A stretch of DNA of 64,000 bases from Heterotrichella gracilis (Eukaryota; Sar; Xanthophyceae; Tribonematales; Xanthonemataceae): contig JAULBX010011656.1 of the NCBI GenBank assembly GCA_032358255.1, forward strand, positions 41,171 through 105,170. Reading direction: 5' to 3'. Under the pieces are notes generated by a model, which was not told the DNA's origin, ran no database searches, and was given only the letters and a program-made list of their open reading frames with translations. This document shows positions 15,463 through 64,000 of this stretch, piece by piece (position 1 is the first letter of the stretch; the number at the start of each line of letters is the position of its first letter). The position numbers and the translations under genes are program-made.

Positions 15463-18400
15463 CTACCCATATTTGTTCATCCTCAGCATCTGCAGCTCAG
15501 CATCAATCTCCTCCGCAGACCGCACAAGGGACCCCTCCTTGGCCGCCGCGGCGCGCACCTTGCTGTCCAAAAACGTGCCCTCGGTGCTGCACACCATCCC
15601 AAAGTTGCCGTGCTTCACCAGCACCTTGTTGCCCACCCGCACAAAGGCGGTGGCGTCCGCGTAGGGCGAGGCCACCGCGGCGTCTGCTGCGCCGCCATGT
15701 GGCACATAGCTGGGCACCGCGGGGATGCGCGAGGTGATCTGGGATTGGTCGTCGAGGGGCAAAACCCCATCGGGGAGGGTCCTGGTCCCCAGGGGGGAGA
15801 TCGCTTCGGTTTGGGATGCGGGGGTTGTCCAGTGGTCCCCATATAATATGTCAAATGCTGTTTCCCCCCTGGGGTGGTGCATCCCAGGGGGAGTGAAGAC
15901 TGCATCGGGGCTGGGCCATGCTGCAGGGGGGATGTCACGAGCCCAGGGGAGGGTGCAGCTGGGTGACCTCCCCTCTTTAATTGTTGCGCACGCCCCCTTG
16001 TGCCTCCACCACGCCTTGGTCTGGCACTCCTTGCTGCAATAGGCAGCAACGCCGCAGCGCGAGCATTTGGACAGGGTGAGGGAGGACTCACTGGTGCCTG
16101 CGGGAGGGGAGGGAGGGGGGGGTTAGGGTGCGGCTAGGGTAATGGGCGCAGCATTTGGACAAGGGGAGGGATGACTCGCTGGGGCCCTGCAGATGGAGAG
16201 GAATGTATGGGGCATGGCATAATAAACGACGCTTCCCTCCTTGTGGACGTTATGCACATATCACATCAAGAGGAGCAGTACCGCTATTGCATGACCCATA
16301 TGCACCTTCAGCCTTATAACCTCACAGGCGCCACAGCCACAGCCACAGCCACAGCCACAGCCACAGCCACAGCCACAGCCACAGCTTGCATGCACCAACC
16401 AATCCCAGCCAACCCTTGTATTATCCCCCTCACCTGTGCAGTTTATGCAGTGTCCATAGGCGCAGCCCACCACCGGCCGCTGCATGATCAGCTCCTCAAC
16501 CTCGGCTGAGGTGCAGCTGTGGTCAAACCTCTCGTCACGCAGGTTGCTGAGGAAGCCAAGCATGTTCCGGCCCTGGTGCAGGGGAGAGGTGGTGGGGGGT
16601 GTGGGGGGGTGGGGGATTGGGTAGGTGGGGTATGGCACCTCCTGTGCTGTTTAGGGTTTAGGGTATAGGGTTGGTGGGTTCTGGGATTGTGTGAGGTTGT
16701 TAGGGAAATGTGGTGCAGCTGTAGTTTCATGCAGGTTGCTGAGGACCCCGAGCATGTTTTGGCCCTGATGCAGGGGGTAGAAGGGGGGTGGGGTGTGTTG
16801 AACAAGGGGTCTTGGGTCAACCCAGCCTACACGTTGTTCAAGAGCCAGAAATGGTGATAGGTAGCTGTGAAGGGTTGAGGGTTTGTGGTTATAAATCCTA
16901 TACCCTAGACGCAATCAAACGAAATAGAGCAATAAATCTCGATAAAATTATAAACTTAAAATCACTATATTCAATTGACATAGATTAAGTTTCAGTCATT
17001 TTTATGAACCCATTTATTTCTGATCCCAATCCCCACCTGCTCATCCTTGAGGTATGCCTCCACCTCGTCCTCCAGCAGCATGGCCCCCTTGGCCAGGCAG
17101 GTGTACACCGCCAACCCTACCCTAGGGTCCATGGCCTGCACCTCATGGTGGCAGGCCCACACAGCAGACTTGAGCTCCTGGGCGCTCACCACCAGGCTGG
17201 AGGTGGCGTCGGCGCTCAGACCACACAGGGCGCCCTGCGGGACGATGGATGTGGTTCCAGAGTTCATAACATACACACCGGGTTTAGGGTTTAGGGCTTA
17301 GGGTTGCGACTGCAGCTCCTGGGCGCTCACCACCAGGCTGGAGGTGGCGTCGGCGCTGAGCCCACACAGGGCGCCCTGCGAGGGGATGAAATTGGTTTCT
17401 TAATATGTAAGAGGGTAAATATACTAAGTGGCCTGTAGGGGCGGGGGCGAGGGGCGATCTCTTCTAAGACATGACGGGGAGTTGTTTCATGACCACTGCA
17501 TGTCCACCCACACCGCCCTCCATGCTTGCATGTCCCCCTGCGTAGTTGGTAATTATTACACTAATTTTTCTCCCCCACCCATTTACTCTTTTACTTATTC
17601 CTTTACTTATTATCTTCCCCTCACCCACCTCGTCCAGCCTGCTCCTCCTCAGCGCCCCAGCAAACAGGTCCCCAACTCCCAAAGCAACCAGCGCGCGATG
17701 CCACTGGGGGTCGGGGCACAGGCGGATCAGGGCCGTGGCAACCTGCAGGGGAGGGTTTAGGGTTTTAAGTAATACGAACCGTAAGAGTTGGGGTTTGGTG
17801 TGTGTGTGTGCCCACCGGGTTGGGACACAGGCGGATCAGGGCAATGGCCACCTATGGGGGAGGGTTAAGGATTTAAGTTTGAGGGTTAAGGGTTCACCAG
17901 GCATGCCTGGACGGCACAAGAGCAGGCAGCTACAGGCATTGGTTTGAGGGTTTAGGAGGACCCAGAAGCACTGTCTGCAAGGGCCATGGCGACGTACATG
18001 CAGACATTGACCCCCAAGGCAAGAAACGATGTGATAGGGATTTCATTGTGCCATCCCTGCCACCCCCCCCACCCCACCTGCACCGCCAGCAACCCCCCCT
18101 CCACCCGCAGCGCCTGCTGCAGCTCCATCCTCTCAGTCAGCTGCTCAGGCTCGTCCCCCGGACCCATGGCGATGGGCTCGGGCTTAATTTCCAGCAGCAC
18201 TGCCTTGAAGGCGGGGATGAGGTGGGCGGACAGGGACAGGAGGGCCCTGTGGGGTAGGGGGTAGGGTTTAGGGTGAGGGTAGGGTTTTGGGTAGGGTTTA
18301 GGGTTGAAGTCCTGCAAGCACTGCCTTGAAGGCGGGGATGAGGTGGGTGGACAGGGACAGAAGGGCCCTGAAGAAAAGGGATTAGGATGTGGGTAGGGGT

Positions 18401-21400
18401 GTGGGTAGGGTTCAGGGTTTGATGGGGCCAGGGTTGTTGCAGGAGCCTTGGGGAGTAGGCCCAGGCTTCTGTTCGAGCAATACTGCCTTGAGGGAAGTAA
18501 TGGTGTGGGCGGTCAGGGACAGGGATCCCCCCGCCCTGTGTGGGAGAATTTAGGGTAATGATTAGGGTTGACCCAGCTAACGTTATGCATGCACGCAGTG
18601 CACCGTGAAATCCTGAACAACATGCCCCATAGTCCCACTTCCACCACTTCCACCACTTCCACGCACCGCTGCGCCTGCTCCCCTTGCCCCCTCCCCGCCC
18701 TCAGCCGCTCCAGCACCAGCTGGCGCCCCACCCTCACCAGGTGCCACAGGGTATCGCACAGCGCCACGTGGCGCGTCACGCACTTTGCCCAGCTCACTAT
18801 CAGGCCGTGCACCTCCAGGGTGTAGGGTATTGTGGCGGGCAGAAACCCTAGATTGTCCCAGAGCGCGGCCAGGCAGGAGACCACGCTGCGGGCGCCCTTG
18901 GCGTTCATCCTGTGGGGGCAGAGAGGGTGGTTGTGGGGACTGCGAGGGATCCGAGGACGTGGGTGGGGTTTTGCAGGGCGCTGGGTGTGCGGTGAGGGTT
19001 TTACGGGGGATGTGGGGTGTGTATTTAGCGTAATGAGACGGGCAAAAACCCTAGGTTGTCCCAGAGCGCGGCCAGGCAGGAGACCACGCTGCGAGCGCCC
19101 TCCACGTTCATCCTGTGGGGGCAGGTGTGGAGTTAGGAGGGTTTTGTCACAAAACTTTTGTGGGGCGTATGGGAGGATTGTGAGGGATCAAAACCCTCAC
19201 CAGTACATTGCCCTTATGACAGATTCCATCAGCCGCACCAGCCCTCCTCCCCTCACCCAAACCTTAATCCCCAAATGCATATACTTCAAAGACTAGGACA
19301 CTATTCCAGTGGATCTTCAACAAACAATCCTCAAAATGCTGCAAAATCGCTCACCAATCCCAGCCCAGTTGACCACCAGAACCTTGCACCCCGTCAGCCC
19401 TGAAACCCTCAAAACCCTGCAGAACCCTCACCAGTCCATGGCCCGTATGACCGCCTCAATCAGGCGCACCAGCCCCCCCTCCCGCAGCGCCACAACCGCC
19501 GCCTGGCCCGCAGTCAGCACCCCAGCCCCCGACCCCACCACCTCCAGATCCACAGCCCGGTCAAACAGGTCGGGGAGGAGCGCCAATCCCCGCAGCACGT
19601 TGAGGGAGGCCACTCGCCGAATGTGGGCCGCCTCGGGCTGCGGGTGGGGGGTGTGGGGGGTGAGCGGAGTGTGGGTGCAATTCAATGGTGATACCATCAA
19701 TGAAGGATGACAACATCCCCTGGGTGGCCATGGAATGTTGTCATCCACTCATGATGGTGTTTATTCACCCTGATGATATTATTTATGCTCCCTCACCTTC
19801 CCTGCAACCTCCCTTGCCTTCCTGTCCGTTCCTTCAGGGCCAGCGCAAATGCTTGGTAATTCTAGTTTATCCAACCTTCAATTGTTTTATGTACTTCCTC
19901 ATTTGATTTTCACCTTCCCCCCTCACCTTCCCCGCCACCTCCCTTGCCTTCCTGTCCGCCCCCTCCACTGCCCTCAGGGCCAGGCGAGGCATCACAGCAG
20001 GCCAGCACCGGGACACCTGGTCGGGGTCCTTAGGGTTTTGGGGCGCGCGCCGAGCCCACGGCAAAACCCTACAGGTGGGTGCCGCTGTCAATAAAGAAAC
20101 ACATCCATATGTACAAGAAAGATATAGGTGCATTATTTCTTATAAGCAAAACATGTATTGGCATGAAACCGATGGGCGCTGTGCAGCCCATGAAGGAGGC
20201 ACGCTTGGTGTTGTAGTAAACCCTAAATCCTAAACCCTACACAATCAGCAGTAGCACCAGCACCAGAACCACCACCGCCACCCCCCCACCTGGTTTTGTA
20301 GCTGTCCATGAGCAGGCACAGGATGGTGGTGAGGTGGTTGACAAGCTCGGGGGTGCGCGCGTGGACGGAGGGGGGGAGGGTGCCGGGCTCGGTGGCCACT
20401 GCATAGGCTGTGTTGGTCAGGGATTTCAGGGACTCGCGGCTGCTCCACCACTCCCTGCAGATGAATGTCGGGATTTGAATTTGAATTTGAATTGGATTTA
20501 GAATTTGGTTTTGAATTGAATTTGAATTGGGAATTGGAATTTGTTTTCCCCTGAACTTCCACTGGGGGTCCCAGATGGGTGATGTTGTCTGCTGATGCAC
20601 GCCACCACCTCATGCTTGCAAACGCACAGGGCAAGCGCCCCTGTCCCGGCATCCATCCCCTCCACTGCGCCCCTGTATACATCGCCTACTCTTCCTCAAA
20701 CACAACCCACTTACAGCTCCTGATTCCTCTTATTACCTCCCCTTCAACCCGCCATTTCTTACACACTTTGTGTGCGTTATTTGCAGCGGGTAGCTGCAGC
20801 CCTGCGCCACCACCTCCTGCGTACACCCCCACAGTAGTAGGATTTCCTCCCCTTTCCTCAGGAGCAGTGTCCTACCCACCGCCTCCCCTCTTTCATTTCA
20901 ATTAATTCTCAATTTTTGACATCTAATACCCCAATTTTTCACATCTATTCACCCCCTGTGGCCCCACCTTATGTGCGGCATCTGCAGCAGGTAGCTGCAC
21001 CCATGCGCCACCACCTCCTGCGTGCACCCCCACAGCAACAGGGTTTCCTCCCCTGCTTCAGGCGCGGTGTAGTCCCCCCCCTTCACCCCGCGCTCCTCTG
21101 CCCGCTGCCGCAGCCTGGTCCATCCCCGCGCGTGCAGGTCGATGTGGTCGGACAGCTGGGACAGCCAGTGGAGGTGGGCGTCCTGCAGCGTTTGGAGGGG
21201 GTCGGAATGGATTATTTGGTGGTTCATTCGTTCTTGTTCCTTTTCCTTTTCTGTTTCCTGTTCCCTTTTCTATTTCCCTTTTCTATTTTTTTCTCTATTT
21301 TTCCCCCTATTTGCGTGCAGGTTGACAGCTGGGACAGCCAGTGGAGGTGGGCGTCCTGGGCATGCCTTGTTTGAGGGGAGATGGGGTTGGAATGGATTTC

Positions 21401-24160
21401 CCCCTCCCCCCCTCGTTTTGCTCGTATTGTTTTTGGTTTTGTCATTTTTCATTTTCATTTTTCGTTTACTTTTTCGTATTAGTTTTCCTTTTCCGTTTTT
21501 GGATGCAAGTTGACAGCTGAGAGGGCAATTGAGGTGGGCGTCCCGCTTCGCCAGGTTGAATCGGTTGATTTCCTTGGCGCCGCACGTGCATGGCTGTATT
21601 TCTATAATGCATGAGAGCAGTCCGGCAGTTCCAACCAGCACCCAGCATCCAACCCCCCCAGATTACCCTCGTCTCTCCCCCCCATCCCCCACACCCCACC
21701 TGTGTCTCCTTGGCCCCCAGCACCCGCAGCCACAGCTTGTTGGGCGGGAACCCAACGGGGACGGTGTAGGCGTTGCTGATGGCAGGGGGGGGGCGGGTGC
21801 CCTGCTTGTTCTGTAGCGGGGGAAGAAATTATTATTTATTCAGATCATGCAGACAAGGTGCAGACAAGCTTTAGGGTTTACATTTTAGGGTTCCAGGTTT
21901 ACCTGCAGGTAGGGCGCTGCTGCGCAGTTGAGGCGGCACATGCTGGTGGCCAGGGTGTGTTGGTGGTCAAAGACTGCAAGGTGGGAAATGAAAAGGGGAC
22001 AGGGGGTCAGCAACAATGATGACTTGCTAAAAAGGGGAGGACACACAAGCACACACACACACACGCACACATGCAATTATGGAAGTCTGAGGGAATCCTA
22101 ACCCCAAACCCTAATCCCTGTACTTGTGGTCTGCGCAATCGCGCCAGGTCAAGAATTGCTTTCACCCTAAACCCTACACCCAACACCCTACACCCCACAC
22201 CCTAAACCCTACACCCCTACACCGTACTTACTGTTACAACAGCGAGCCATGCTCAGAATCGCTTTCACCGTTTTCTCCCACAAGTGTCCGTTCGACTTAT
22301 TGACGTCACAGTAGGCCTGCGAAGAAGTAAATAAAGAAATAAATAGATTCAAAATATACTAATTGCTGTGCAAAGGTGTGCTGTATGTACACGCAGGAAG
22401 AGAGGATTTGATGCAAGCAAAGCAGAAATTCACCAACAATGGCTGGAATTGCCGGGCTGAGGGCGTCGAAGGTGGCATGCACAGATGGATAATCAAATTG
22501 ACCATCACCACCACCACTGCCACCAGCGCCACCACCACCACCACCACCACCACCACCACCACCACCAGCGCAGCTGGTCCCTACATACGACAGCTTATTA
22601 TCCAGAGCCTGCTTAGGGTTTAGGGTTTAGGGTAGAGGACACCCCACCTCAGACAGCTTTGTGTCCATGTGGCTTCCCATGGCTGCGTGCACAATGGTGG
22701 CAAGGTTTAGTGCTCAGGGTTTAGGGTTTAGTGCGTAGGGTATAGGGTTTAGCGATTAGGACACCCCACCTCTGACAGCTTTGTGTCCATGTGGCATCCC
22801 ATGGCTGCGTGCACCACGGTGACAAGGTTGTTGATACCCATGAGGCTCCACTGGAAAGGGGTGGGGCTGATGGTGGAGATCAAGGCCGAGGGGAGGGAAT
22901 TTGCCGCCAGGGTGGCGTGCACCACTTGGAGGGACAGGCGCACGCACTCCTTGGTCCATAGCTGGCTGCAAAGCGGCGGGAATAAAAATTAAGCAAAGTA
23001 AATGAAGCATAAACATAAGGAATTTAAGTATCTAAAACAAGCAAGCTAGCTGTAGGACAGAGCGGCTAATCTGGCTGTATTGCTGCAACGCACGTAAGTA
23101 CAAAGAAGGAAACTTTGCCATGCGAAGGTACAAGGGAGGGGACACACACCGGCGTAGAACCCCTATTAGGGTTTTACCACCCCAGAAGCCCTCTACCGCA
23201 GCACCCCTTACCGCAGCACGTTCCCCACCAGCGACCCCCTCTTTCCCAGCCCCAGCTCCCCCCCCGCCTCCTCCGCCTCCTGGTTAAAAACGTGCACCAA
23301 CACCGTGTGGGGGAAGTTGACCAGGGGCACCACCCACATGAGGGCGCGGGCAAGGGGGGCGAGCGGGGAGTGGGTGGGGGAGGGGGAGTCGCCCTTTGCC
23401 AGCTGGCGGGTGGCTGCCTCCCAGTCAAGGTGGGAGAAGAGGGCTGCGGCGAGCGCGGCGGTGGTGTCCCTGTGGGTGGGAGAGGGGGTGGGTAATTTTA
23501 CGGTGTTTTGAGGGGTTTTTTGTTTCCTGCACACGGTGTAGACCCTTGGGAAAGATTTTGGAGCAAGCCACTCGCGGGTGGCTGACCCCCAACCCAGATG
23601 GGAGAAGGGAGGCTGCTGCACGCGTGGCGGTGGTGTCCCTGCAGGGCAAGGGGAACTGGGTGGCGGGTGGAGGAGCGCTTTCTGGTGACACTGAACTGTG
23701 TACTCTACCAACATGCTTGCTAGTCTCCTTCAGGGATTAAGTAACAACTAGAATTGATAATAGTAAGATGGCAGGCTGAAAGTACTGGTCACTGGACACT
23801 GGTTCCCACCCGCCACTACAACCCATCCCCCCTTGGACCCACCCATGCCACCCACACACCACCCCCGCCCCCCCTCCCCCACCTGCTGAGCAGCCCCAGC
23901 AGGAACATCTTATCCCCCTTTTCGGCGCCGGGGAAGTTGGCCAGCACCACGTGGAACTGGTCCGCGAAGCGTTGTAGGCGGTCGGCAAGCGCCGGTCGGG
24001 TGGCCACCGCCGTCAACGGGATCGCGCCCTTGCTCTTTGGGAGCGCCTTCTCCACAGCCGAAACCGCGCTGACGTAAGCCTGGTGCAGCTCCAGGAAGGA
24101 CTGCTGCGTGGGGTTTTGCGGGGAGGTGGGGGGCGGGGTGGTTTTGGAGACCATAGCCAT
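15463..24160 (-). CDS. MYND zinc-finger protein M1 (class I)
   Basis: Sixteen exons join in phase, 1074 residues: 23883-24160, 23212-23469, 22770-22965, 22232-22316, 21903-21973, 21700-21810, 20968-21182, 20290-20454, 19927-20068, 19432-19637, 18667-18909, 18078-18246, 17629-17742, 17037-17234, 16434-16572, 15463-16097. The start reads MAMVSKTTPPPTSPQNP. The body is a long Leu/Ala-rich, probably alpha-helical region without a named domain (DAHLHWLSQLSDH, DQVSRCWPAVMPRLALRA). A MYND finger lies at about residues 855-892, split by the last intron: CAYGHC in exon 15, then KCSRC, YCSKECQ and HKGAC in exon 16. MYND fingers bind short proline-rich peptides; there is no SET or other enzyme domain, so it is likely an adaptor. 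The tail ends LQMLRMNKYG. It is head-to-head with M2. Many introns hold copies of neighbouring exon ends. Confidence 0.88.
16331..16385. repeat. CCACAG hexanucleotide microsatellite in the last M1 intron
   Basis: About nine perfect units of CCACAG/GCCACA. The same hexamer, degenerate and far longer, is translated in an exon of M2 at about 26516-26812. Confidence 0.9.
16650..16800 (-). repeat. Pseudo-exon copy upstream of M1 exon 15
   Basis: The start of exon 15 (true exon 16434-16572, NMLGFLSNLRDE) is repeated about 190 bp upstream in sense as NMLGVLSNLHE with its CAG acceptor, then degenerates. TTTAGGG units on the + strand (CCCTAAA in sense) separate the two. Confidence 0.75.
17281..17390 (-). 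repeat. Pseudo-exon copy upstream of M1 exon 14
   Basis: The first 70 or so bases of exon 14 (GALCGLSADATSSLVVSAQE) recur nearly unchanged at about 17315-17383, separated from the true exon by telomere-like units at about 17280-17303 (CCCTAAA in sense). Either acceptor could splice in phase; only the lower-coordinate copy continues into the rest of the exon. Confidence 0.85.
18247..18375 (-). repeat. Pseudo-exon copy upstream of M1 exon 12
   Basis: The first 60 or so bases of exon 12 (LLSLSAHLIPAFKAVL) recur with few changes at about 18312-18370. TAGGG/TTTAGGG units fill the gap (18250-18305). Confidence 0.8.
19030..19235 (-). repeat. Pseudo-exon copies between M1 exons 10 and 11
   Basis: At about 19045-19125 lies a copy of the exon 11 start (ARSVVSCLAALWDN) with its acceptor. 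At about 19185-19245 lies a degenerate copy of the exon 10 end with its donor. One intron therefore carries relics of both flanking exons. Confidence 0.75.
20470..20535. repeat. GAATTT-type simple repeat in an M1 intron
   Basis: Degenerate hexamer repeat of GAATTT/GAATTG just upstream in sense of exon 8. It is the only clearly AT-rich simple repeat in this gene. Confidence 0.8.
21130..21545 (-). repeat. Three copies of the M1 exon 7 start
   Basis: The true exon start (DAHLHWLSQLS, acceptor at 21183) recurs at about 21315-21360 and 21490-21545 with increasing divergence. T-rich strings on the + strand (TTCCTTTTC type; purine-rich in sense) separate the copies here in place of telomere-like repeats. 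Confidence 0.8.
22480..22810 (-). repeat. Exon 3 end duplication and CCA trinucleotide run in M1
   Basis: A CCA-rich trinucleotide run lies at about 22498-22566. Beside it, the last 60 or so bases of exon 3 with its donor (true copy from 22770) recur at about 22640-22705, separated by TTTAGGG-type units at about 22715-22755. Confidence 0.8.
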
Positions 24161-25057: not shown

Positions 25058-28000
25058 ATGAACGACCCAATAGTCATGCCGAAGCCCCCACCCCACCCGC
25101 TGCACCAGATGAAGCAGTTCCAGCTGGCGTTCCTCAACTTCGGCGCGTCCCTAGAGAAGGTTTTCCAGTTGCAGCAGCCGGGGGCCTCCATTCCCGTACA
25201 GGCGGTCCTCTCAAAGCCCCAGCTGGTGCAGCGGCTCCGCCGCTGGGAGGAGGTGGAGCGCGGCGCGGGCTTCGAGCGCTCGGCGGCGGAGGAGGGGCAG
25301 GACGGGATGCGGCAGAAGGTGGAGGATGAGATGCTGTCGGGGTTCGCGCAGCAGTTTTTCAAGTGAGGGCCGAGCCGATCTGGCATATGCATGCACATAT
25401 GCATGCATGCATATGCGCTCGTTACACAAGCCCACTCGCACGCGCAGCTGCATATGCATGCATACCGACACCCACTGGTACACGCCTGCGCGCACGCACG
25501 CATGTGGGGGCACAGGGTACCTATGCACTCGTGCGTGGCACCTAAACCCTATGGTTTAACCCCTAAACCCTACACTCCTGAACGGAGCCAGCGCACGCCC
25601 TAAACCCTACACTCTTGCAGGTATGCTAGCACCCTCACCAAGTGCATCCAATGGCTTGGCCGCGTCGACTGGGGAGGGTGCACGCGCCGCTGTCAAGTGG
25701 CACCGAGGAAAACCCTAACGCCCAGACAACAAACCCTACGCCACCCTACTCCTTGCAGGGATGCCAACCCTAAACCGTAACCCCAAACCCTACACTCTTG
25801 CAGGGATGCCGCCACACTCACCAAGTGCATCCAGTGGCTTGGCCGCCTGGACTGGGAGGGCTTCATCCGGCGCTGCGAAGGGGAAGCGCAGGCAACGGAG
25901 AAAACCCTCCTCTGCGCCCTTTGCTCCCTCACCTTATTCCCCCTGGATGTGTGGGGCATGTGCCGGAGGGTGGCGCCCTCGCCAGCATACCTTATGAGGT
26001 GGGTGGCAGGGGGGGGGGGTGTCCAAGGTCTAGGGTTTTAGGGTGTGGAGTGTAGGACATGTGCAGGAGGGTGGCGCCCTCGCCAGCGTACCTCATGAGG
26101 TGGGTGGCAGGGAAGGGGGTTGTCCAGGGTGTAGGGTTTTAGGGTGTAGGGTATGTGCAGGAAGGATGCGCCCTTCGCAAGCGAGCTGTCGAGTAGGTGG
26201 GTGGACAGGGCCACCTCGCTATTTCTCTATTCTTTTTTTTCATATTCATTTCTATTAATGTATCGATTTCTGCACTGCCACAAATTGGTTTCTGCATTGC
26301 CACAAGTTGATTCTGCATTGCCACAAGGGTTTGCCATGCTGTTGCCACTCACGGCCCCTCCTGATTGGATTCAACCTCCTCCCATGGAATCGAACCCGCG
26401 ACCTCCTCCCATGGAACCGAACCCCTGACCTCCCCCCCACCCTTCCTACCAGGCCCAGGATATACAGGCCAGCCATCGGCGCACTCCAATGCCTGGCAGC
26501 AATGACCCCCATAGCAACACCCACAGCCACAGCCGCAACCACAGCCACAGCCACAGCCGCAACCACAGCCACAGCCACAGCCGCTGACACAGAAGCTGAC
26601 ACAACCGCTGACGCAGCCACAGCCACAGCCACAGCCACAGCCACAGCTACAGTCGCTGACACCACCACAGCGGCAGACACCACCACAGCCACAGCCGCTG
26701 AAACCACCACAGCCACTGACACAACCGCTGACGCAGCCACAGCCACAGCCGCTGACACCACCACAGCCACAGCCACAGCCGCTGACACAGCCACAGCCAG
26801 CACCTCCGCTGGCGAAGGGGATACAGGGTTACAGGGTGCGCTGGGTGGTGGTGGTGGATGGTGGTGGTGGGGGGGAGATGGGGGGGTGCCGTGCCGCAGT
26901 GTTTGTGTATGGGGGGTTGTGTACTGGAGTGTGGTTTGCTGGGTTATAGGGTGTGCTGAGTGGTGGTGGTTCCTGTTGATTTTGTGCGTGAGAAAGGGGT
27001 GGGTGGGTGCTGGGTTATGGGGTGCGCTTGGTAAGCTGGAATGGGGGTTGTAGGTGGGTGGTTGCTGGTGTGGGTGGGTGCCTCTGGGCTTACTATGCAT
27101 GTGGGTGATGATACCCTAGCTAAGGTGTTGTGAAGCGGCAACGAAACCCTAGCCAAAAGATACCGAAACCCAAGCCAAGGGTCAATATGCATACCAACCA
27201 CCTATAGCACTTCTACTAGCTGCCCCCAGCAACCCACAGGGCCTGCAAGGCCCACCAAAACCAGAATCCCCCAAACAACCATACCATGCCCCTCACACCT
27301 TGTCCCCCACCTCTCGCAGGATCCCCACCCCCCACCCCCACCCCCACCCTCCCCACCCTCAAAAAGCTGACGGAGCACCTGCAGCACCTGTACAAGCTGC
27401 TCAAGGCAACCCACAGGACCTGCGAGGGGGACCAGGGCCAGGTTTCGAATCCCCAGCCGACCAAAGCCAGTCCCAAACGGGCCCAGAAGCATGGGAAGGA
27501 GGGAGCAGGGGAGGCAGGTGGGGCGGGGTTGGTGCGGCATTTCCACAAAGCTCCATCGTTGCTCCATCAGTCATTCAATAATCAATCCGATGTAGGTTGG
27601 GACTGCACTGTTGCCAAGGAGGGATCTGCGGCATTCCCACAAATCCCCATAATTTCCATAAACCCCCTCCACTGTCCCGTCAACTCACTCCATGGCCATG
27701 GCGGGTACTCGTTATTATTCTTATTCTTAGTCTTATTCTTATTCTTTTCTTAAATCCTTATTCTTATTCTTATTCTTATTCTCATATTCCATGGTAATCC
27801 CGATGCAGACTGGGACAGCGCCATTGCCAGGCGCACCCTGCGGGACTTTGCGTGCGACAGTGCGTGGGAGCGGGGCGTAGACATGGTCATTTGGCTGCAC
27901 AGGCAAGCCAGGGCACAGCTGCCAATGGAACCAGTTGGGAATGGTGGGTGGGCGGGTGGGTGGGTGATGGGTGTGGGACCAGCGTACAAAGGGGGAACCC

Positions 28001-50829: not shown

Positions 50830-50990
50830 GATCAGATGTGACTAGTTGTGATGCCGTGTGATCAGATGTTACTAGTTGTGATGCCGTGTGATCAGATGTG
50901 ACTAGTTGTGATGCAGTGTGATCAGATGTGACTAGTTGTGATGCCGTGTGATCAGATGTGACTAGTTGTGATGACGTGTGATCAGATGTG
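50830..50990. repeat. 30-bp minisatellite in M4 intron 12
   Basis: A 30-bp unit (GATCAGATGTGACTAGTTGT plus ten more bases) is repeated just over five times almost perfectly. The same intron position in M3 (about 41225-41420) holds a degenerate GTGATGATGTG-rich relative. Confidence 0.92.
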
Positions 50991-53743: not shown

Positions 53744-53884
53744 GACATGGACATGGACATGGATATAGTGGAGGAGAAACGAATCTAGTGGAGGTGAAAT
53801 GAATCTAGTGGAGGTGAAATGAATCTAGTAAAGGTGGAAATGAACCTAGTGGAGGTGGAAATGGACATGGACATGGACATATAT
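53744..53884. repeat. GGACAT hexamers flanking a 20-bp repeat in M4 intron 8
   Basis: Three to four GGACAT units open and close the block. Between them a unit of about 20 bp (GAATCTAGTGGAGGTGAAAT) is repeated four to five times. Confidence 0.85.
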
Positions 53885-55929
53885 ATTGTTCGCGCACCCA
53901 GATATCCTGGCATTGGTGGGGTTGGCTCGCGCTGCCGCGTCCCGCGCCTCCTCCAGTGCGTGTGGGTTGACCAGCAGCTCCTGGTGGTGTGCAGGGACAG
54001 GGTGCCCTGCACAAGCTCCAAATCAAACCAGCCCTTGCCACGGGGGTGATCTGCGGATGCATTGCAAAACCCTTAGACGTGGTCACCCACAATATAAGGG
54101 TTTTTAAGAGGTATCTGACAGCCACAATATCTCTCCGACGCTTTCGGAACTGATCCAGCTTGATGTTCATTGTGACGGACTGGCGATTTGTAACAGAATG
54201 TAACGCTTTGAATCGGAAACGACACGGTAAGGGCCAGACGTCTGAAATCAGCTTCAACCGGTGAAGAATATTTACATTGGCAAAAGTTTCATGAAATGAC
54301 CACGTCTAAATCGATTTGCAATGAAACGGTAAAAGAATAGAAAAGGGAGCGTGGTGCAATCGGGTAAAATCTATGTGATGCTCAACAAACTATGGGCTCC
54401 CTGTATGTGACAGTCAAATGTATCTAGTGCATGTGACTTAACAAATGATAACAAAACGGTTTCAATTGTAGAAGGATGTACAGGAATTTACGGGGGTTTT
54501 GTACAAAGACATTATATAGATATATAATATAAAAATAGTTTAAAAAACATTATACATATTACCGGTGAGAATGAAGCGGCTCATCCATGCAGCTGCTATC
54601 CTTGCCAGTGCAAGCTGAGGCAGGAGAACCCCATCCTTCTGCCTCTGGGCATCCTCGGGCACTGGGGCTGCACCCTCGGGAGGCTCCGTCAGCTTCACCA
54701 CCTGACAGGAAAGGGCGATAGATGAAGGAGCAGGGAGTGAACTAGGCACTGTGGCAGTGTTGTTCCCCCCTAGGAGCATGGCTACGGAGCCAGCAAGGGT
54801 GAAGCAGAAACCCTAATGGATACCCTAATGGACCTGCGACACAGCCGGGAAGGGCAGCAACCAAACCGCAGGCAGGCAGCGGGAAGGGCACATATCTAAA
54901 AGCAGATAGCACGTGAACAACAAAGGTATGTACATTGTTTCCTGTGTAGATAGAAATGGCCAGAATAGGGTTTCTTTCCTCACTGTAGTACCTCGGAGAC
55001 CGCAATGAGTAACCTGGTCACTGCCCGCAGGCCTCCCGAGTCCCACAGTGCTGGGTACATGTCCTGGCGATTGCCATTGGGGACCATGGTGTGCATGGCT
55101 CGGAACATGCGGGTCGCGATAACAGGGTCGGACATGCCTCCTGCAATGGGCAGACGTGGGACGAGAAGAAACTGCTCCTTGCATGCATTCCAGCAGCACA
55201 GCTAGACGAGCAAGCTATTGACTGAAAGGGAGTTCATCAAAACCAGATACCACTATTCTAGGGGGACTGTCACATCCCAGCCACATCTCAGGGTCATGCA
55301 CAAGGTTCTACAGCGCCCACCCACCTAGGTCCATCTGCTACAGCAGGTACTCTAACCCCTAACCCTTAAAGCATACAGCTTCAAACCCCGAAACCCTTTG
55401 GCCACACCCACATGGGTCCATCTGCCACAGCAGGTACCCCAAACCCTACTCTCTACAGCTTCAAACCCGAAAAACCTACAACCCCCACCCACCTGGGTCC
55501 ATCTGCCACAGCAGGTGTGCTGCCACTGCACTCACGGGCCCGGCGGTGTGCGCACAGTACGCGCTCTCAGGGAGGTGCTTCACAACCCTCTCAACCACGC
55601 GCGTCAGGCGCTCCCTGTTCGGACCCCCGGCCAGCAGCTGGCAGGCTAGCGCATGCGCCAGCTCAGCAGCAGTGACGTCCTGCACCACCATGGTCACATG
55701 TTACGTCATCATTGTCGTCTATTGATCCACCACTTTCATTTGTGGCTTATTTACATCATCGCTGTCACTGAATGCATCATCATTGTCACCTATGTACATC
55801 ATCGTCCTCATTACTTGAAGCATCATTGTCACCTGTGTACACCATCGTTGTAATTAATTGCATCTCTGTTTTCCCAGAGGGCGCTGCAAACCTGCCTTTG
55901 TAGGGTCTAGGGTCTACCCACGTTCTTCC

Positions 55930-56124
55930 CAAGGCGCTGGGCCACCTGCCTGGCCACCTCGCCCGTGTCGCAACAGTGCGGGTTACAACCCTAAACCCTC
56001 AATCCTGCGCTCACATTCTTCCATAGGCACTGCGCCACCTGCCGGGGCCCCCTCCCCCTGCGCTGCTGCAGTGCCGTTCACTCCACAAAACCCTAAACCC
56101 CAAACCCTCAACCCCTGCCCTCAC
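55930..56124 (-). repeat. Two pseudo-exon copies downstream of M4 exon 4
   Basis: The exon 4 end (GGCGCAGCGCCTTGG-like plus donor) recurs at about 56020-56075 and 55920-55975 with changes. AACCCTAAACCCTCAA strings on the + strand (TTTAGGG in sense) separate the copies. Confidence 0.85.
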
Positions 56125-57467
56125 ATTTTTTCCAAGGCGCTGCGCCACCTGCCTGGCCACCTCCTCCTGTGCTGCAGTAGTGCCTGACATCGTGGCAAGC
56201 AGCCGCTTCATCATGCGCGCCACCACGGGGGAGGAATTGGGCAGGGGCGCCAGCTGCAGCACCGAGCACGAGGTGTGATGCATGATGTTTGTGTAACATT
56301 GGATGATGTATGATGTATGGGATGATGTGTGATGTGCGATGTGTGATGTATGATGCATGCTGATTGTGGCATCATGTATGAGGTATGGGTTGAGCCCTCC
56401 ATTGGATTGGCACTCACATCACTGTCACAGCAGTTGGAGAAAGCGCCTCGTGATGCTGGTGCGATGCCATTGCGGAATTTGTCCAGGGTCATGACATACC
56501 TCTTCCCTGAGGGCTGCATGTTTCTCCAGACTTGCAATTGAGTGCACTTCTAATGGATAGTGCATGTGCATGCAACGATTGTACAGCGCCATGACGTACC
56601 GTACCTCATTTCCACGGGCTGCATGCTAGGGTTTAGGGGTTGGTATTTATATGGGATTAGGGTTTAGGGGAGCAGCTCATTTGTTCCTATAAGTGATGGA
56701 CTGCCTCCAGGCAGCCACGGTTGGCCCGATCCACTGTATATGCCCCTAATTATGCTGTGAAACCCTAAACAGAGGGTAGCTCCCATGTCGTGGAACCCTA
56801 CGCCAGGGTCTCCCACGTCGCACCTGCGGCTCCCGTGGGTATGGCGCATCCTGCGAGGAGGGAGGCGGGGGGTAGGGTTCAGGTTTAGGGCACATCCTGG
56901 CCAGGAGGGTGCGTGGGTGGGTGGGTCGGTATTGTTGCAACAACCAAACACCATGTGGGAAGCGTGGCTGTGTGGTAGTTTGGTGTGGTGGTGGTGGTGG
57001 TGGTGGTGGTGGTGGGGAGTGTGGCTGTGTGGTGGTGGTGGTGGATGGGTGTGACACCCAGGTCATCCACAATGGGAACCCACAAGCCTTGCACACTCTT
57101 CCAGCCTGTGTGACCTACCACCTACCACAATACGGTGCTGTACACTTGAAGCTATGCTACTGGTGCTGTGCATATGTAGGCGTGGTGTACATGTGAAGGC
57201 GCGGTGAACACACGTAGAACCACGGCATGGGGTACATTTGAAGGCGTGGTGTGCACAGTGTATGTCGCTACACATATCACTCGAAATGCAGTTGTGGTGC
57301 TGTCCTATGAAGGCATGGTGTCAAGACAGCCTTACCTCTGCTGACAAGCCCAGCCGCTCAAGCTGCTGGCTCATCGGTCCAAGCTCAGCTGCACCACCTG
57401 GCGCCACCTGCGGACCCATGGTAGAGCCACCAGCACCCACAGGCGAGGGGCCTCCCACCTGCTCCAT

Positions 57468-58409: not shown

Positions 58410-61400
58410 ATGGCACTAGCGATCCCACCCTCGTTCACAGAGCAGGCGCTCGCGCTCTTCGCGGATGTGCTCACCTCGATCGAGCACTTCTTCCCCAAAC
58501 CCAGCAAGCAGTCGAAAGCCAAAGGGAGCGTCTCCATCACGCTGGATGCGCTGCTGTCCAAGCCCCCCATGGCATCCAAGATACACAAGTTCAGTGGCAT
58601 GGTGCAAGAGGGGCTGCTGTCGCAGTCGCACACCTGGGGCTTTGCGGAGAGCCGGGAGCTGCTGTACCGCATAGTCAAGTACGCACACAGCCGTCTGCAT
58701 GCACGCTGCTAAGCGGTGCATGATGCATGCATATTTGACTGATTCCTGGTGCATGGAACCTGGACCAGGGGTAGGCAGGGTGTACGGGTATGCCTAACCC
58801 CAACAATAGAGGCAACGCTTGTCGGAAAATGCTGGCAAAGTGGCAGAACGTGGACAGCATGATTCCATGTCTGCTACCATGGGGTTGGCTGAATGGGCGG
58901 CTGGTTGTTGGTGCTGGGATACGCAACCCCCCAAATACCATGCCCTGAAAGGCAGCCCTGTATACATCGCGTTTTCATTTTCACTAAGTCTGCAAACAGC
59001 ACACCCCAGACCCCAACCCCATCCCCATCCCTATCCCCATCCCCACACCCCTCCCAGGGACCAACTCCTCGCCAAAGCCGCCGCCACCCTCGCCCGCCTG
59101 GACTTCACAACCGCCTGCGAACACATCAGGGGCAACAAGCGGGAGCGAGCGGCGGCCACTGCGGCGCTGGCCCCCGTGGGACCCCTGTGCATCTTCCTGC
59201 TGGAGCTGTGGGGCAGGGTGGGGATGGACCCCGCTGCATCGGCGGATGACGTTTTCGTGGGGGAGGAGGTGCCCACGTGAGCAAATAACGCTGTTAAGGG
59301 TTTAGGGTTTGGGGAGCTAGGGTTCCTGTGCGAGGAGGGGCCCACGTGAGTGCGTCGGATTCCGATGCCAGGGCTCCTGGGGTTTGGGTGGGGTTTTCAT
59401 GTTTGGGTTCTTGTGGGAACAGGTGCTAAATTTGTTGGGGTTGTGCTGAGGTTTTTTGGGAGCGTGGGCGGGTGCCAGAAACCCTACACCCTGGGTAAAC
59501 CCTTACCATACCCATTTCCCCCCTGCATCCTTGGGGCATGGGCCTGGAATACCTGGTCGCGCTGTGTGTCATAAACCCCAAACCCTAAACCCTAAACCCT
59601 AAACCCTGACAGGCACCTTTTTCCGTCCTGCAGCCTGCTGGCGAGCCCCAAGCTGCTGAAGCCTGTGGTGGGGGTGTGTGAATGCCAGCTGGCGGCAGCA
59701 GAGGCGACGCAAGGGGAGGAAGAGCAAATGGAGCGCACCATGGGGGGGACCCCACCTCCGGAGCTCATACTGGTCCACCTGTCTGCGGTGATAGTGCATG
59801 TGAGTGGAAAAGCAAGCCCTAAACCCTAAACCCAAACCCTAAATCCTAAATGCCGGCCGGGGGTGTGTGGCATGGCGGGTGGGTGACAAAGGTTTCAAAC
59901 CCTAAACCCTGTATGCGTATGTGGGGATGCTGGTCCACCCGGCTGCGGGGATGCTGCATGTGTACCCTAATCCTAGGTTCATTCGAGGAGGATCCAAGGG
60001 TTTCGGGTGTGCATAGAAGACCTCACCATTCCCCTCGTATGATCACCCTCATTTCCCCCCCTGCAGGCGTTCACTGCAGAGAGGGAAGGGAGCAAGAGCA
60101 AGAAGGGGGGGAATGTTAGGGTCACGCTGGCGGGTGATGCTGAGCTGACAGGCCACCTGGTGAAGCTGCTGGTTGCGGTTGCAGGTGGGCAGGCGGCAGG
60201 GGTTGGGGCTTAGGGTTTTGGGAAGTAGGGTTTAGGGCCAGGTTGGCTGGTTGCAAGTGGCAGGTGAGCAGGCGGTAGGGCTTGGGGCTTAGGGTGTAGG
60301 GTCACGCTGGCGGGTGATGCTGAATTGACAGGTCACCTTGTGAAGCTGCTGGTTGCCGTGGCAGGTGGGCAGGCGGTAGGGTTTGGGGGTTAGGGTTTAA
60401 GCGTAGGGTTTGGGCGTAAGGTTTGGATCTTAGGGTTTAGGGCGGGCGGGTGATGCTGAGCTGGCATGGCGCCTTGTGAAGCTGGTCGTTGCGGTTGCAG
60501 GTGAGCGGGCATTAGGGTTTGGGGCTTAGGGTTTTTAGGGCGTAGGGTTTGGGGCCAGGCTGGCGGGTGAGGGGGCATGCTTCACCACCCCACCCACCAC
60601 CACATGTGCCCTGGCAACCCCGCACCCTCATCCCACCTCTTTCAACCCCCTTCAGCCCCCTCCAGCACATCAACACAGCCTGATTGGCACCTGCTACACA
60701 CCGCCACGTTTGGCGTCATGCCCCCCCCCATTCCACCCACAACCACCACCACATGTACCTTGACACCCCGCACCCTTCCTCCCACCTCCCCCTAAAATCC
60801 CCCCTTTCCTCCCCTCCAGCGAACCACCACAGCCTGATTGGGCACCTCCTCCACACCGCCACCTTTGGCGTCATGCCCCACCACCCCACCCACCACCACC
60901 ACCACATGTACCTTGACACCCCGCACCCTTCCTCCACCCTCCCCCTAATACCCCCCCTTTCTCCCCCCCTTGCAGCGAACCATCACAGCGTGATTGGGCA
61001 GCTGCTCCACAGCGCCACCTTTGACGTCATGAACTCGCTCACCGCAGCGGCGGATGTGCTGCCGGGGCGCAAGAACAAGCAGGTGGTGGTGAAGTGGCTG
61101 GCGGTGGAGGGGATGCAGGTGCGGGGTGGGGGGTGGGGATGCTGATGGGGCTTGGGGGGTGGAGGTGTTGCTGGTGGGGGGTGGGGGGTGGTGCAGGGAA
61201 CAAGCACGACGGGTGTCCACGCAACCGCAGGGCGCCATGTTTCATTGTAGTGGATTGGCATGTGTGGCCCTTGTCGTTCCAATCCCTTCGTTTTCCAACA
61301 CTTCTTGTGATTTTGGCCAGGCTGTCACCTATCTTGGGACCTAGTTGGTTGGGCTGTTGGTTTGCTGGTCCACTCCACTCTCCCGATGTGGGTTTCCCTC

Positions 61401-64000
61401 ACCAGGGGTCTTCCCCGAACCCATTCAGTCCCATTTTCTGCCCTTTGCCACTTCTACCCCTTGAATTCCTCCCCTCCCTTTTTCCACCCTGTAATTCCGC
61501 CCTTCCCATGTTCCACCCTGTATTTCCTTCCCTTGCCACTTCCCGCCCCTTGTAATCTGTTTTTTCTCCCCTTGTGCAGGACGCCCTTCTTGGGTGGATG
61601 ACCACATTTGCTGGCGCCCTGGGGTCTGATCCCGAGGCTGGCATCAAATGTGCGGATCTCCTGGACATGGTGCGGAGCGGGGTGGGACAGGGGGGGGCAA
61701 GGTGCGTGTGCAGGAAAGGGAAACCCTAGTGACCCTAAATGGTGACATGGCGTTCCGGCAATCAGCCAGATCAGCAGAGGCAGCCTTGCGCAAGCTTGCG
61801 CCACTTTGGCTCTGTTTTGGCATTTGCTTGCACCATGTTTGAACATCCCTGGTCGTCAGGTCCTTTGTAAGTGGGGGTGTTTCATAACTTGAAATGCTAC
61901 ATGTAGATAATCTAGATTTTTTTTTCGATTGTGGTTTTGAAAGGTGGGGGATGGGTACACCAACCTTCGGTATAGGGCGAAAGAGCTTGAATTTGGGTTA
62001 GGGTGCATGATGGGTGCACATGCTCTACCACTGTCCCCAAACTCTCCCCCCACCGCCCACCCTGCAGCAGACTCCTCTTCTCCCGCCCCCTCTCCAATCC
62101 ACCAACCCCTCCCCCCATTCCTGGCAAACACCCCACTCCACCCCCACCCCCCACTCCTCACCCTCACCCACCCCCCACCCCGCAGCAAGTTCTGGTCCAA
62201 ACCCCCCGCCGTGGCAGCCCTCAGCACCCTCATGGCCACCTGGAAATACTCCCTGGACGACGATATCAAGATCCCCATCCTCACCCAAGACACCCTCGCC
62301 CTGATTGGCCAGAAGCACAAGGAGGGGGTGGTGTATTATGCGCGCATGAGGCAGCCCCCGGGGCCGCCCCTGTGGGTTTCTGTCCCGGGGATGCTGAGTC
62401 GCGTGCTGCAGGCGTGGCATGCCCTGGACACGCAGGTGGGGTTAGGGTGTAGGGTTTAGGGCTTGGGGATGGGTCAGGGGTTTTGTGTGGTGGATGGTGT
62501 GCACGTGCATGGAAGGGTTGGTGGTTTTTTGTATGCATAATGGAGTCCCCGGGACCGCCCCTGTGGTTTCGGTCCCGAGGAGTGCGGCTGCAGGCGTGGC
62601 ACGCGCTGGACACGCAGGTGGGGAATAGGGTTGGGTTAGGGTTTTCGTGCGGTGCACAGAAGGAGTGGTAGGAGTGGAGTCCGCAATCCACCTAAACCCT
62701 AAACCCTTGCTTGCAGCCCAAAGTGGCGGAGCGCAAGGAGCGCATGGGCAATGAATTCTACAGTCCACCAAAACCCTAAACCCTAACTCTACACCCTTGC
62801 TTGCAGATCGAGGAGCCCAAAGTGGTGGAGCGCATGGATAATAAACCCTGCAATCCACCAAAACCCTAAACGTTTAACCCTAAACCCTCGCTTGCCGCCC
62901 AAAGAGCCCAAAGCGGCGGAGCGCATGGATAATGAACCCTACAATCCACAAATACCCTAAACCCTAAACCCAACACCCTTGCTTGCAGCCCAAGGAGCCC
63001 AAGGTTGTTGAGCGCATGGCGTACCTGGGCGCATCTGCCAGGGCCTGCTGGAGCGTGCTGGACTGGGTGATGGATGGGGAGATTATGCCGGGGGCCGGGG
63101 ACGAGCAGGTGCAGGCAATAGAAACAATAATAATAATAATGATATCATTTTTATGTGTTACAACGTTACAACGTTTCAGTAGCTTTGGATAAAAACCTTC
63201 AATCTAAAATGAAAAAAAATTGCATTTCCATGTGGGTGATCTGGAGCGTGCGGGGCTGGGTCACCCAGTGATGCATGGCAATGCGCAGGTGCAGTCAATA
63301 TGTTTTACTTTTTCGGAACAAAAAACCAGGAATGCCTTGCGCTGACCACGCGCATGAGCGCCCTTGCAGGCTGTTGTGTGTGCACATTTCTGAGTCCCCT
63401 CGCCCCACCCCTAAACCCTGAACCCTAGACTCGAAACGCCCCCCCACTCCTGCAGGTCATGTCTGCATCTGAGGTGTCCGACAGGGTCCTGGGCCAGGGG
63501 CTGGTGGCATCACTGGAGGCGCACCTGAGGTTGCTGGCAGAGTACGTGCAGGGTGTAGGGTGTAGGGCGTAGGGTTTAGGGTGCAGGGTGCAGGGTGTAG
63601 GGTGCAGGGTGCAGGGTGCAGGGTGTAGGGTGTAGAGTGCAGGGTGTAGGGTGTAGGGTTTGGGCGCACGCGAGGTCACTGACAGAGTACGTGCAGGGTA
63701 TAAGGGTGTAGGGTTTAGGGTTTGGGTGCACACGAGGTCCTGCACAATGGACTGTGGAGCACACCCCCTCCCTGCACATTTGGGATACAGGCCCCCCCTG
63801 TCTGCATATTGCCCCCATGAGAGCCCTGTTGACGCACACGGGGTAGTTGTCCTAACAGTCACTGCTAGGTGATGTATCCACCCACACCCCCACCCCCATC
63901 CCCAAACCCACATACACCCTCCCTCCCCCACACCACCCTTAACACCAATCCCTCCCACCCAACCCCCCCCCTCCCCCCCCCCAGAACCCCCCAGGAGAAC
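58410..64000 (+). CDS. MYND-family protein M5 (class I), 5' part
   Basis: Nine complete exons join in phase: 58410-58678, 59058-59276, 59634-59799, 60067-60184, 60976-61118, 61580-61701, 62186-62435, 62989-63108, 63456-63545; a tenth starts at 63985 and is cut by the window edge. The start (MALAIPPSFTEQALALFADV) fits the class I N-terminus of M1 and M2 (a Lys/Ser-rich stretch, a short LLSKPPM-type motif, and the phase-2 donor after exon 1). Exon 2 (DQLLAKAAATLARLDF) matches the second exon of M1 and M2. About 500 residues are visible. The MYND finger itself would lie beyond 64000, so membership is inferred from the N-terminal half. Introns are rich in copied exon ends. Confidence 0.8.
60185..60510 (+). 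repeat. Two further copies of the M5 exon 4 end
   Basis: The end of exon 4 (GHLVKLLVAVA plus donor GTGGGCAGGCGG) recurs at about 60293-60380 and 60445-60510, progressively diverged. TTAGGGTTT-type units in sense separate the copies. Confidence 0.88.
60575..60975 (+). repeat. Tandem copies of the M5 exon 5 start, about 150-bp unit
   Basis: Copies of the exon 5 acceptor and first codons (NHHSLIGHLLHTATFGV-like) lie at about 60668 and 60821 before the true exon at 60976. Each is joined to a pyrimidine-rich CCACCACCACATGTACC stretch. Confidence 0.88.
62700..62988 (+). repeat. Tandem pseudo-exon array upstream of M5 exon 8
   Basis: CTTGCTTGCAG acceptors plus an EPKVVERM-like start recur about every 90 bp (62717, 62807, a degenerate one near 62897, and the true exon at 62989). 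AACCCTAAACCC strings lie before each. Confidence 0.9.
63546..63720 (+). repeat. TAGGGTGCAGGGTG array and exon-end copy after M5 exon 9
   Basis: Directly after the donor GTGCAGGG, about fifteen heptamer-like units (TAGGGTG, CAGGGTG, TTTAGGG) form a degenerate telomere-like array. It is followed by a copy of the exon end (GACAGAGTACGTGCAGGG) at about 63680-63700. Confidence 0.88.

Follow-up and report, generated by a model that had tools for sequence, protein, structure and literature searches.

Tandem copies of exon ends with telomere-type filler at splice sites of Heterotrichella gracilis, read as possible scars of break repair

The locus and the sequence sample

The stretch of Heterotrichella gracilis DNA under study (hereafter the window; 64 kb, C118:41171-105170 of a genome of 68.5 Mb in 903 contigs) carries predicted genes in which Pfam domains of the DOMON, universal stress protein (USP), JmjC/cupin and MYND types were recognised. 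It also carries tandem arrays in which the end of an exon, together with its splice site, is repeated into the neighbouring intron, usually with units of the type TTTAGGG/CCCTAAA among the copies. These arrays, which had been described in a first-pass annotation of the window as the product of continuing tandem duplication across splice sites, were analysed in the window and in a wider sample of the same genome.

In total 288 kb of DNA was analysed, made up of the window, 20 stretches of 10 kb each and 8 loci of 3 kb each, together ∼0.4% of the genome on seven contigs. The 3 kb loci were chosen by telomere motif and are located on C2 and C3. The 10 kb stretches were placed on a fixed grid on C2, C3, C8, C9, C11 and C13, so that their positions were not selected by motif; the six contigs themselves were drawn from the telomere-motif listing as being of sufficient length. 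Genes were predicted with a two-strand hidden Markov model trained on the same 288 kb from curated seed open reading frames (ORFs). An unsupervised codon mixture was dropped after converging on a C-rich composition model. The gene finder yielded 416 introns (median 310 nt) and 471 exons, with (C/A)AG before and GT(G/A)NG after the donor junction, and TGCAG before and G after the acceptor junction, as splice consensus. Local repeat pairs no more than 500 bp apart were collected across the 29 sequences, excluding those shorter than 30 bp, scoring less than 50 bits or having a period below 25. Expected counts of arrays at boundaries were derived from 300 circular shifts.

Tandem arrays at exon-intron boundaries

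The local repeat pairs comprised 135 direct and 2 inverted pairs, with 52 and 0 of these, respectively, in the window. They were grouped into 97 tandem arrays, 40 of which lie in the window. A copy spanned an exon-intron boundary in 70 of the 97 arrays, against 41.1 (sd 4.4) expected. Wholly intronic arrays numbered 6 (22.9 expected) and intergenic arrays 0 (9.2 expected); there were 5 exonic arrays (7.0 expected) and 16 mixed ones (16.7 expected). With the grid stretches alone, 31 of 48 arrays spanned a boundary against 18.0 (sd 3.2) expected, 2 were intron-only (11.2 expected) and 0 intergenic (5.8 expected). The window alone gave 31 of 40 boundary arrays against 18.3 (sd 3.0), 3 intron-only (8.6 expected) and 0 intergenic (3.5 expected). 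In either set 0 of the 300 shifts reached 31. Detection bias was assessed by planting 344 artificial duplications at 6-18% divergence, which were recovered at 92-99% in every class (boundary 84/87, intron 101/104, exon 80/81, intergenic 66/72). Arrays contain 138 of the 851 predicted boundaries, and their density in the grid stretches is 48 in 200 kb, or ∼1 per 4 kb.

Predicted exon joins at array-bearing introns were aligned to solved proteins. The alignment was gap-free at the join for five sites, namely in xylose isomerase (join after aa 221), threonyl-tRNA synthetase (after aa 127), CAF-1 subunit B (after aa 190, five residues short of the end of the aligned part, and after aa 371) and an amidase (after aa 260). 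A sixth site, after aa 306 of the amidase, fits less cleanly, a gap of one residue lying three residues ahead of the join; here the downstream exon is itself duplicated and either copy could be the one joined. For these few conserved genes the fit of the joins to solved proteins shows that the exon-adjoining copy is the real exon end, so that the inner copy and the filler are intronic. Besides these genes, arrays outside the window were found in a transporter-like gene, and Pfam recognises a desaturase gene and a hydrolase gene that carry arrays.

The nine intervals singled out by the first-pass annotation as clear cases all coincide with independently found tandem arrays (two arrays each at 25598-26210 and 60117-61031). 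Its description of copies separated by telomere-type units is borne out, every one of the nine having an array in which exact telomere 7-mers number at least 8 (a single one is present in 60585-61031 on its own), as is its expectation that boundary copies would prove commoner than random, on the counts given above. The figure of more than twenty affected introns is an understatement, since 44 of the 106 predicted introns of the window overlap an array. The claim that the feature is not specific to the MYND family stands for the USP gene (boundary array at 10144-10426, minus strand, both copies called exon), for the DOMON gene (array at the gene end, 1-164) and for genes elsewhere; it does not extend to the membrane-protein gene also named, as ORF 35972-37417 has no array and no array lies anywhere between 33892 and 40607 in the window.

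The telomere motif and its link to the arrays

Runs of (CCCTAAA)7 were found on 11 contigs. Six lie within the first ∼200 bases of the contig in telomere polarity, and five, on other contigs, are on the opposite strand. The runs at contig starts identify TTTAGGG/CCCTAAA as the telomere repeat of the organism. Three tandem telomere units gave 834 matches in the genome vs 0 for a reversed control, and a telomerase RNA-binding domain is encoded (2 matches on C626).

The placement of the motif within the 288 kb was non-random. Runs with at least 3 telomere 7-mer matches were intronic in 226 of 245 cases, with 12 intergenic and 7 exonic; in the grid stretches alone 111 of 118 were intronic. Duplication arrays contain 93 of the 226 intronic runs. 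The density of 7-mers peaked within 40 nt of the 5' splice site, at ∼20 per kb in each orientation, and 20-40 nt upstream of the 3' site, at 28 per kb for CCCTAAA. Background densities were 1.47 per kb in intergenic DNA, with promoters and untranslated regions pooled in, and 0.9 in shuffled introns; the motif-chosen loci L005, L006 and L008 were excluded from the intergenic and exon densities. Weaker peaks near splice sites persisted outside arrays. On the sense strand the 5' halves of introns held 64 TTTAGGG vs 62 CCCTAAA, and the 3' halves 23 vs 77. The skew of the 3' half likely reflects the resemblance of TTTAGG to an acceptor and the suitability of CCCTAAA for a pyrimidine tract.

Genome-wide, the donor-like CAGGTGNG was followed within 25 nt by CCCTAAACC 478 times and by GGTTTAGGG 722 times. 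The control with the first order swapped (CCCTAAACC then CAGGTGNG) gave 176, and many among the matches listed look like acceptors. CCCTAAACC occurred ahead of TGCAGG 1096 times vs 624 for GGTTTAGGG. Among the matches listed, several recur ∼100 bp onward, as at C23:72994, 73106 and 73218.

At least 3 telomere 7-mers were present in 51 of 71 boundary arrays, vs 11.9 (sd 3.0) of 71 matched array-free boundary segments (the count of 71 here and of 70 in the shift test differ because of an edge margin of one base). The same was true of 8 of the 15 mixed arrays and of none of the 11 arrays confined to intron or to exon (boundary arrays vs these 11, Fisher p 6e-6). Tandem duplication therefore seems to come in two kinds, an ordinary kind without the motif and a boundary kind that usually carries it.

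Anatomy of the duplicated unit and of the joint

The duplicated unit was measured in 59 of the 97 arrays, these being non-overlapping and of two copies, which gave 48 boundary records. At the 28 5' sites the duplicated stretch comprised 26-100 nt of exon and 5-46 nt of intron, and at the 20 3' sites 18-97 nt of exon and 4-55 nt of intron, in agreement with the copies of 30-80 bases reported in the first-pass annotation. The exon part exceeded the intron part at 25 of the 28 5' sites and at 16 of the 20 3' sites. The duplicated length was 38-117 nt in total, with a median of 69. Each event duplicates, in direct orientation, a stretch from inside the exon to just past the splice site; the joint holds a filler, in many cases made of the telomere repeat of the organism itself. 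Examples in which this is clear by direct reading are L016 3735-3877, L016 5372-5544, L015 8019-8146 and window 17167-17397.

The filler was -1 to 169 nt long (median about 50 nt), varied in sequence, and contained a telomere 7-mer in 24 of the 42 arrays in which the joint was separable. In the 27 arrays tagged 5' the 7-mers reached 66.8 per kb in the filler vs 5.5 just past the inner copy, and in those tagged 3' 55.0 vs 30.9 per kb; this tag is imperfect, as arrays with both kinds of predicted boundary were tagged 5' (17167-17397, truly a 3' array, among them). A telomere 7-mer was present within 20 nt of only 4 of 70 wholly exonic ends, so that telomere motifs flanking the stretch on either side were not the starting point of the duplication.

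Age of the copies and effect on introns

Identity between copies ranged from 68 to 98%, indicating a wide spread of ages. The steady decay of copies with distance claimed at first pass was borne out in 5 of the 9 arrays with an outer exon end and at least 2 inner copies scored, out of 19 multi-copy arrays examined; in two further multi-copy arrays with no scored outer copy the identity dropped by just 0.02-0.04. Two related predicted genes, 69-90% alike in aligned blocks, lie in tandem at 39306-47884 and 48815-57467 and are useful for dating intron changes; the first, at 39306-47884, has MYND-like Cys/His residues. Four arrays of this pair, all on the minus strand, have at least two copies where the other gene has a single alignable exon copy: the 3' splice-site array at 40608-40886 (unit 80 nt; single copy at 50215-50317), the two-copy 5' array at 40994-41139 (78%; single copy at 50680-50734), the two-copy 5' array at 42196-42358 (94% over the aligned part; single copy at 51603-51645) and the 3' array at 51843-52059 (69%, telomere-type filler; single copy at 42553-42628). 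For the 3' array at 41829-42141 (minus strand; unit ∼71 nt, ∼4.5 copies) no exon-derived match was found in the paralogue. Both genes carry 5' arrays on the minus strand at two matching sites, 46170-46364 (unit 84 nt) with 55308-55516, and 46770-46917 (91%) with 55919-56184 (CCCTAAA-type units on the plus strand). Identity within the gene exceeded that between the genes in six of eight comparisons (40608, 42196, 46170, 55308, 46770 and 55919), the exceptions being 40994, where the two were about equal (79 v 78%), and 51843, where it was lower within (81 v 84%). Most, but not all, of the duplications in this pair therefore post-date the gene split or were homogenised.

Introns with telomere 7-mers were longer than those without (median 335 v 282 nt, p 0.0003), whereas introns with a detectable array were not clearly so (339 v 297.5 nt, p 0.15); of the process proposed at first pass, the tandem duplication across splice sites is upheld in many genes, on many contigs and over a wide range of ages, and the lengthening of introns holds for the motif and not clearly for the arrays. 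The GT of inner 5' copies was kept in 42 of 49 cases vs 39.3 expected, decaying like its surroundings with no excess. The inner AG was kept in 41 of 43 vs 33.4 expected, a small excess at 3' sites; in the inner (upstream) 3' copies of all loci the AG had an identity of 0.977 per base vs about 0.87-0.89 around it. Array pairs of the type expected from creation of a new intron, in which a 5' site maps onto a 3' site, numbered 0 among those aligned.

Origin of the arrays

The arrays are interpreted, with confidence that is about evenly balanced, as scars of recurrent break repair anchored at splice sites. The starting lesion would be a double-strand break that is staggered, its overhangs measuring about 40-120 nt, with a nick in the exon and another in the neighbouring intron. 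Fill-in of both overhangs and end joining would follow, as in small tandem duplication dependent on CST and Pol alpha, and telomeric DNA would often be added to an end, or captured, before joining. Direct-only duplication with filler at the joint is the expected outcome of filling both overhangs and then joining, and the 135 direct vs 2 inverted pairs fit such fill-in and not templated insertion. If the outer splice site is used the mRNA would remain intact, and the event would be near-neutral and only add intron; extra copies could then arise by repeat-mediated expansion of the unit. Survival of boundary events in this manner explains the missing exon-only arrays but not the missing intron-only and intergenic ones, which points to a break hot spot at exon-intron junctions, perhaps owing to transcription or splicing. 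This is the least certain step, and might for example involve nicking at an edge of R-loops formed by RNA of the intron or exon. The involvement of telomerase in the repair, also raised at first pass, is plausible but unproved: the motif is that of the organism's telomeres and the genome encodes a telomerase domain, but the placement of the repeat in the filler does not follow the polarity expected of simple extension.

Several observations weigh against repair of this kind. The joint was without a telomere 7-mer in 18 of the 42 separable arrays. At 3' sites the motif is found past the inner copy as well, so that part of it may be older intron sequence. Extension by telomerase predicts TTTAGGG by the left end and CCCTAAA by the right; this was not seen in the filler, where both were scattered. 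Arrays were absent from 8 of the 20 grid stretches (L017, L018, L020, L022-L025 and L028; Poisson P 0.0002) and numbered 1-6 in each of the other 12, an uneven spread for which the break-repair model offers no explanation; either the process or its survival varies with the region or the gene. The hot spot at splice sites is inferred from the distribution of the arrays, the gene models are predictions from the same DNA in which inner copies are sometimes called exon, and the material is the DNA sequence of a single assembly.

The array-free stretches were mostly low in telomere motifs. Over the 20 stretches the number of arrays correlated with the telomere motif (rho 0.74, p 0.0002) and not significantly with GC (rho 0.40, p 0.08) or with the number of boundaries (rho -0.20, p 0.41).

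An alternative in which selection is the only filter, random duplications with filler arising everywhere, exonic ones being purged and boundary ones surviving via the outer site, is judged unlikely. It would explain why 0 of the 5 exon-only arrays carry the telomere motif and why at least 5 nt of intron is included in the duplicated stretch at 5' sites, and it leaves the direct orientation to the repair step. On this account intronic and intergenic duplications should survive equally or better, yet they were found at 6 v 22.9 and 0 v 9.2 with planted duplications detected in all classes, and 0 of the 6 intron-only arrays carry the motif. Faster loss by drift, both copies lying in intron, was estimated, not computed, to give a ∼twofold deficit and would not account for all of it.

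The telomere-like motifs could instead be old intron elements near splice sites, such as a pyrimidine tract or branch point, with the arrays formed by slippage or unequal crossing-over between them. The motif is indeed dense near splice sites outside arrays. In the 3' half of introns, where splicing would be served by a motif rich in pyrimidines, CCCTAAA exceeds TTTAGGG by 77 to 23; the 5' half shows no such excess (62 v 64). Each unit of the multi-copy arrays at 62691-63019 and 43964-44173 repeats the motif, and in 3' arrays it also lies past the inner copy. However, the young two-copy arrays at L016 3735, L016 5372 and L015 8019 have the motif in the joint but lack it past the inner copy, and a first duplication by recombination would need a motif on the exon side as well, which only 4 of the 70 exonic ends possess. 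As an origin of the arrays this route is considered improbable; slippage or crossing-over between motifs may nevertheless be right for the later expansion steps.

Insertion at splice sites of an introner-type mobile element, with telomere-like ends and a long target duplication, would produce an insertion with flanking direct repeats, limited to introns and spread over many contigs. With telomere motifs masked, only 8 pairs among the 416 introns shared 29-60 bp at E 1e-5 or better, and the fillers differ in length (-1 to 169 nt) and in sequence. As these 8 weak pairs amount to no dispersed intron family in the ∼0.4% of the genome sampled, the introner hypothesis was rejected as very improbable. 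Assembly artefact or chance similarity, the concern that short repeats are hard to assemble notwithstanding, is scarcely credible, for the copies are 2-32% different whereas artefacts would be near identical, and the arrays occur on several contigs, at exon boundaries of conserved proteins and in counts above the shifted controls.

Intron lengthening and differences in intron length between lineages are usually ascribed to transposons and small indels. Under break repair at splice sites, every step of growth appears to be marked at a defined place by a scar that is tagged and can be dated, through copy identity together with telomere filler. It is conceivable, with less confidence than is placed in the repair itself, that splicing or transcription marks junctions for breakage, that the telomere machinery heals them, and that each intron expands outward from its two splice sites as it takes up copies of its own exon ends. 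If so, the telomere repeats would tag each event and provide a readable record of intron growth, and splice sites would be tied to DNA breakage and to the telomere machinery.

Comparison with known systems

Interstitial telomeric sequences at double-strand breaks in primates, rodents and horse consist of the species' own repeat in both orientations, according to the available text of PMC7215372. At horse loci duplication of the flank with telomere repeats is there ascribed to staggered breaks and is rare (3 of 66 loci in simple form and 2 more in complex changes); the intron share of human interstitial repeats is 31%, in keeping with random insertion, and that text mentions no preference for splice sites. 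The arrays resemble these loci, as far as they are described there, in the use of the organism's own telomere repeat and in the flanking target duplication, a break being the presumed cause here. They differ from them in that 226 of 245 runs are intronic and densest near splice sites, with 93 of the 226 in arrays.

Small tandem duplications arising from complementary 3' overhangs via CST and Pol alpha were described for induced breaks in human and mouse cells (PMC8355091, available portion). Like the arrays they are direct and of tens of bp, and are formed by fill-in of staggered breaks and end joining, using a telomere-maintenance complex; unlike the arrays they show, in the portion available, neither telomere filler nor splice-site anchoring. 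On the available text of the two papers, neither precedent explains the anchoring at splice sites.

Gain of introns through tandem duplication or through the repair of staggered breaks was reported for Drosophila and, by citation, for Daphnia in the accessible part of PMC2809761. Direct repeats overlapping splice sites and the proposal of staggered-break repair are held in common; intron gain as treated there creates new introns, whereas here existing introns are enlarged and 0 pairs of the creation type were found. Introners are known mainly from fast-evolving lineages such as green algae (PMC9860276, in excerpt). The arrays share with the introners of that excerpt the limitation to introns and the genome-wide occurrence, and differ from them in that the sample contains no dispersed family of similar introns. 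Introners are marked by a short target duplication of 3-9 bp, by terminal inverted repeats or by both; the duplications of the arrays measure 38-117 nt. For plant telo boxes an origin by telomerase at free 3' ends in open chromatin was proposed in PMC3022908, which in its available text reports a peak in 5' untranslated regions and a slight under-representation in introns, the first two introns of Arabidopsis being richer. Telo boxes likewise place the telomere motif within genes; as described there, and unlike the arrays, they are single units without exon-end copies.

Each ingredient is known elsewhere. Literature searches, with most subscription papers outside their reach, returned no report of telomere-tagged duplications or of anchoring at splice sites.

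Further arrays and minor features

The remaining arrays of the window are distributed over both strands. On the minus strand, 3' splice-site arrays lie at 16535-16797 (two copies 192 nt apart, telomere-type filler), 17167-17397 (intron end and first ∼68 nt of the exon duplicated 141 nt apart at 89%, with sense-strand CCCTAAA repeats at the joint), 17708-17878 (two copies 109 nt apart, 83%), 18160-18523 (identity of the inner copies to the exon end 89%, then 64% farther away), 18823-19124 (two copies 203 nt apart, 90%), 23398-23641 (82%, without a telomere 7-mer) and 43964-44173 (unit 57 nt, ∼3 copies, TTTAGGG-type spacers on the plus strand). The 5' splice-site arrays of this strand are at 19790-19958 (two copies 130 nt apart, 95%, without a telomere 7-mer) and 22610-22829 (two copies 122 nt apart, 89%, with sense-strand CCCTAAA filler at the joint).

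On the plus strand, 3' splice-site arrays lie at 25598-25883 (two copies 183 nt apart, 82%, CCCTAAA-type filler), 29861-30000 (89%, CCCTAAA at the joint), 33424-33554 (90%, preceding a MYND-type exon), 60585-61031 (unit ∼150 nt, ∼3 copies, one telomere 7-mer) and 62691-63019 (unit ∼91 nt in 3.6 copies, composed of CCCTAAA repeats, TTGCTTGCAG and the first ∼40 nt of the exon). The 5' splice-site arrays are at 60117-60568 (identity of the inner copies 89%, then 83% farther away; TTTAGGG-type filler) and 62318-62631 (78%). The tandem array at 25944-26210 has a unit of ∼102 nt, consisting of the exon end with its donor and TAGGGTTTTAGGG.

A stretch of 36-60 bp, with 82-89% identity outside telomere motifs, is common to introns of different loci (L001 1375-1610, L003 1837-2223, L010 6884-7347, L016 5434-5984, and window 22965-23211 and 61701-62185) and is possibly a small dispersed repeat. 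The array-free stretch L025 contains exons with helicase-like motifs at 3272-6567 (minus strand), which appear to resemble HELQ or polymerase theta. Chlorophyll a/b-binding proteins are encoded in the genome (43 exon-level matches). A genome search for Piwi gave 4 matches and has no bearing on the arrays, and likewise a kinase search. Near the end of the window, at 63546-63659, lies a heptamer array of GTGTAGG x 16, a variant-like unit of telomere length.

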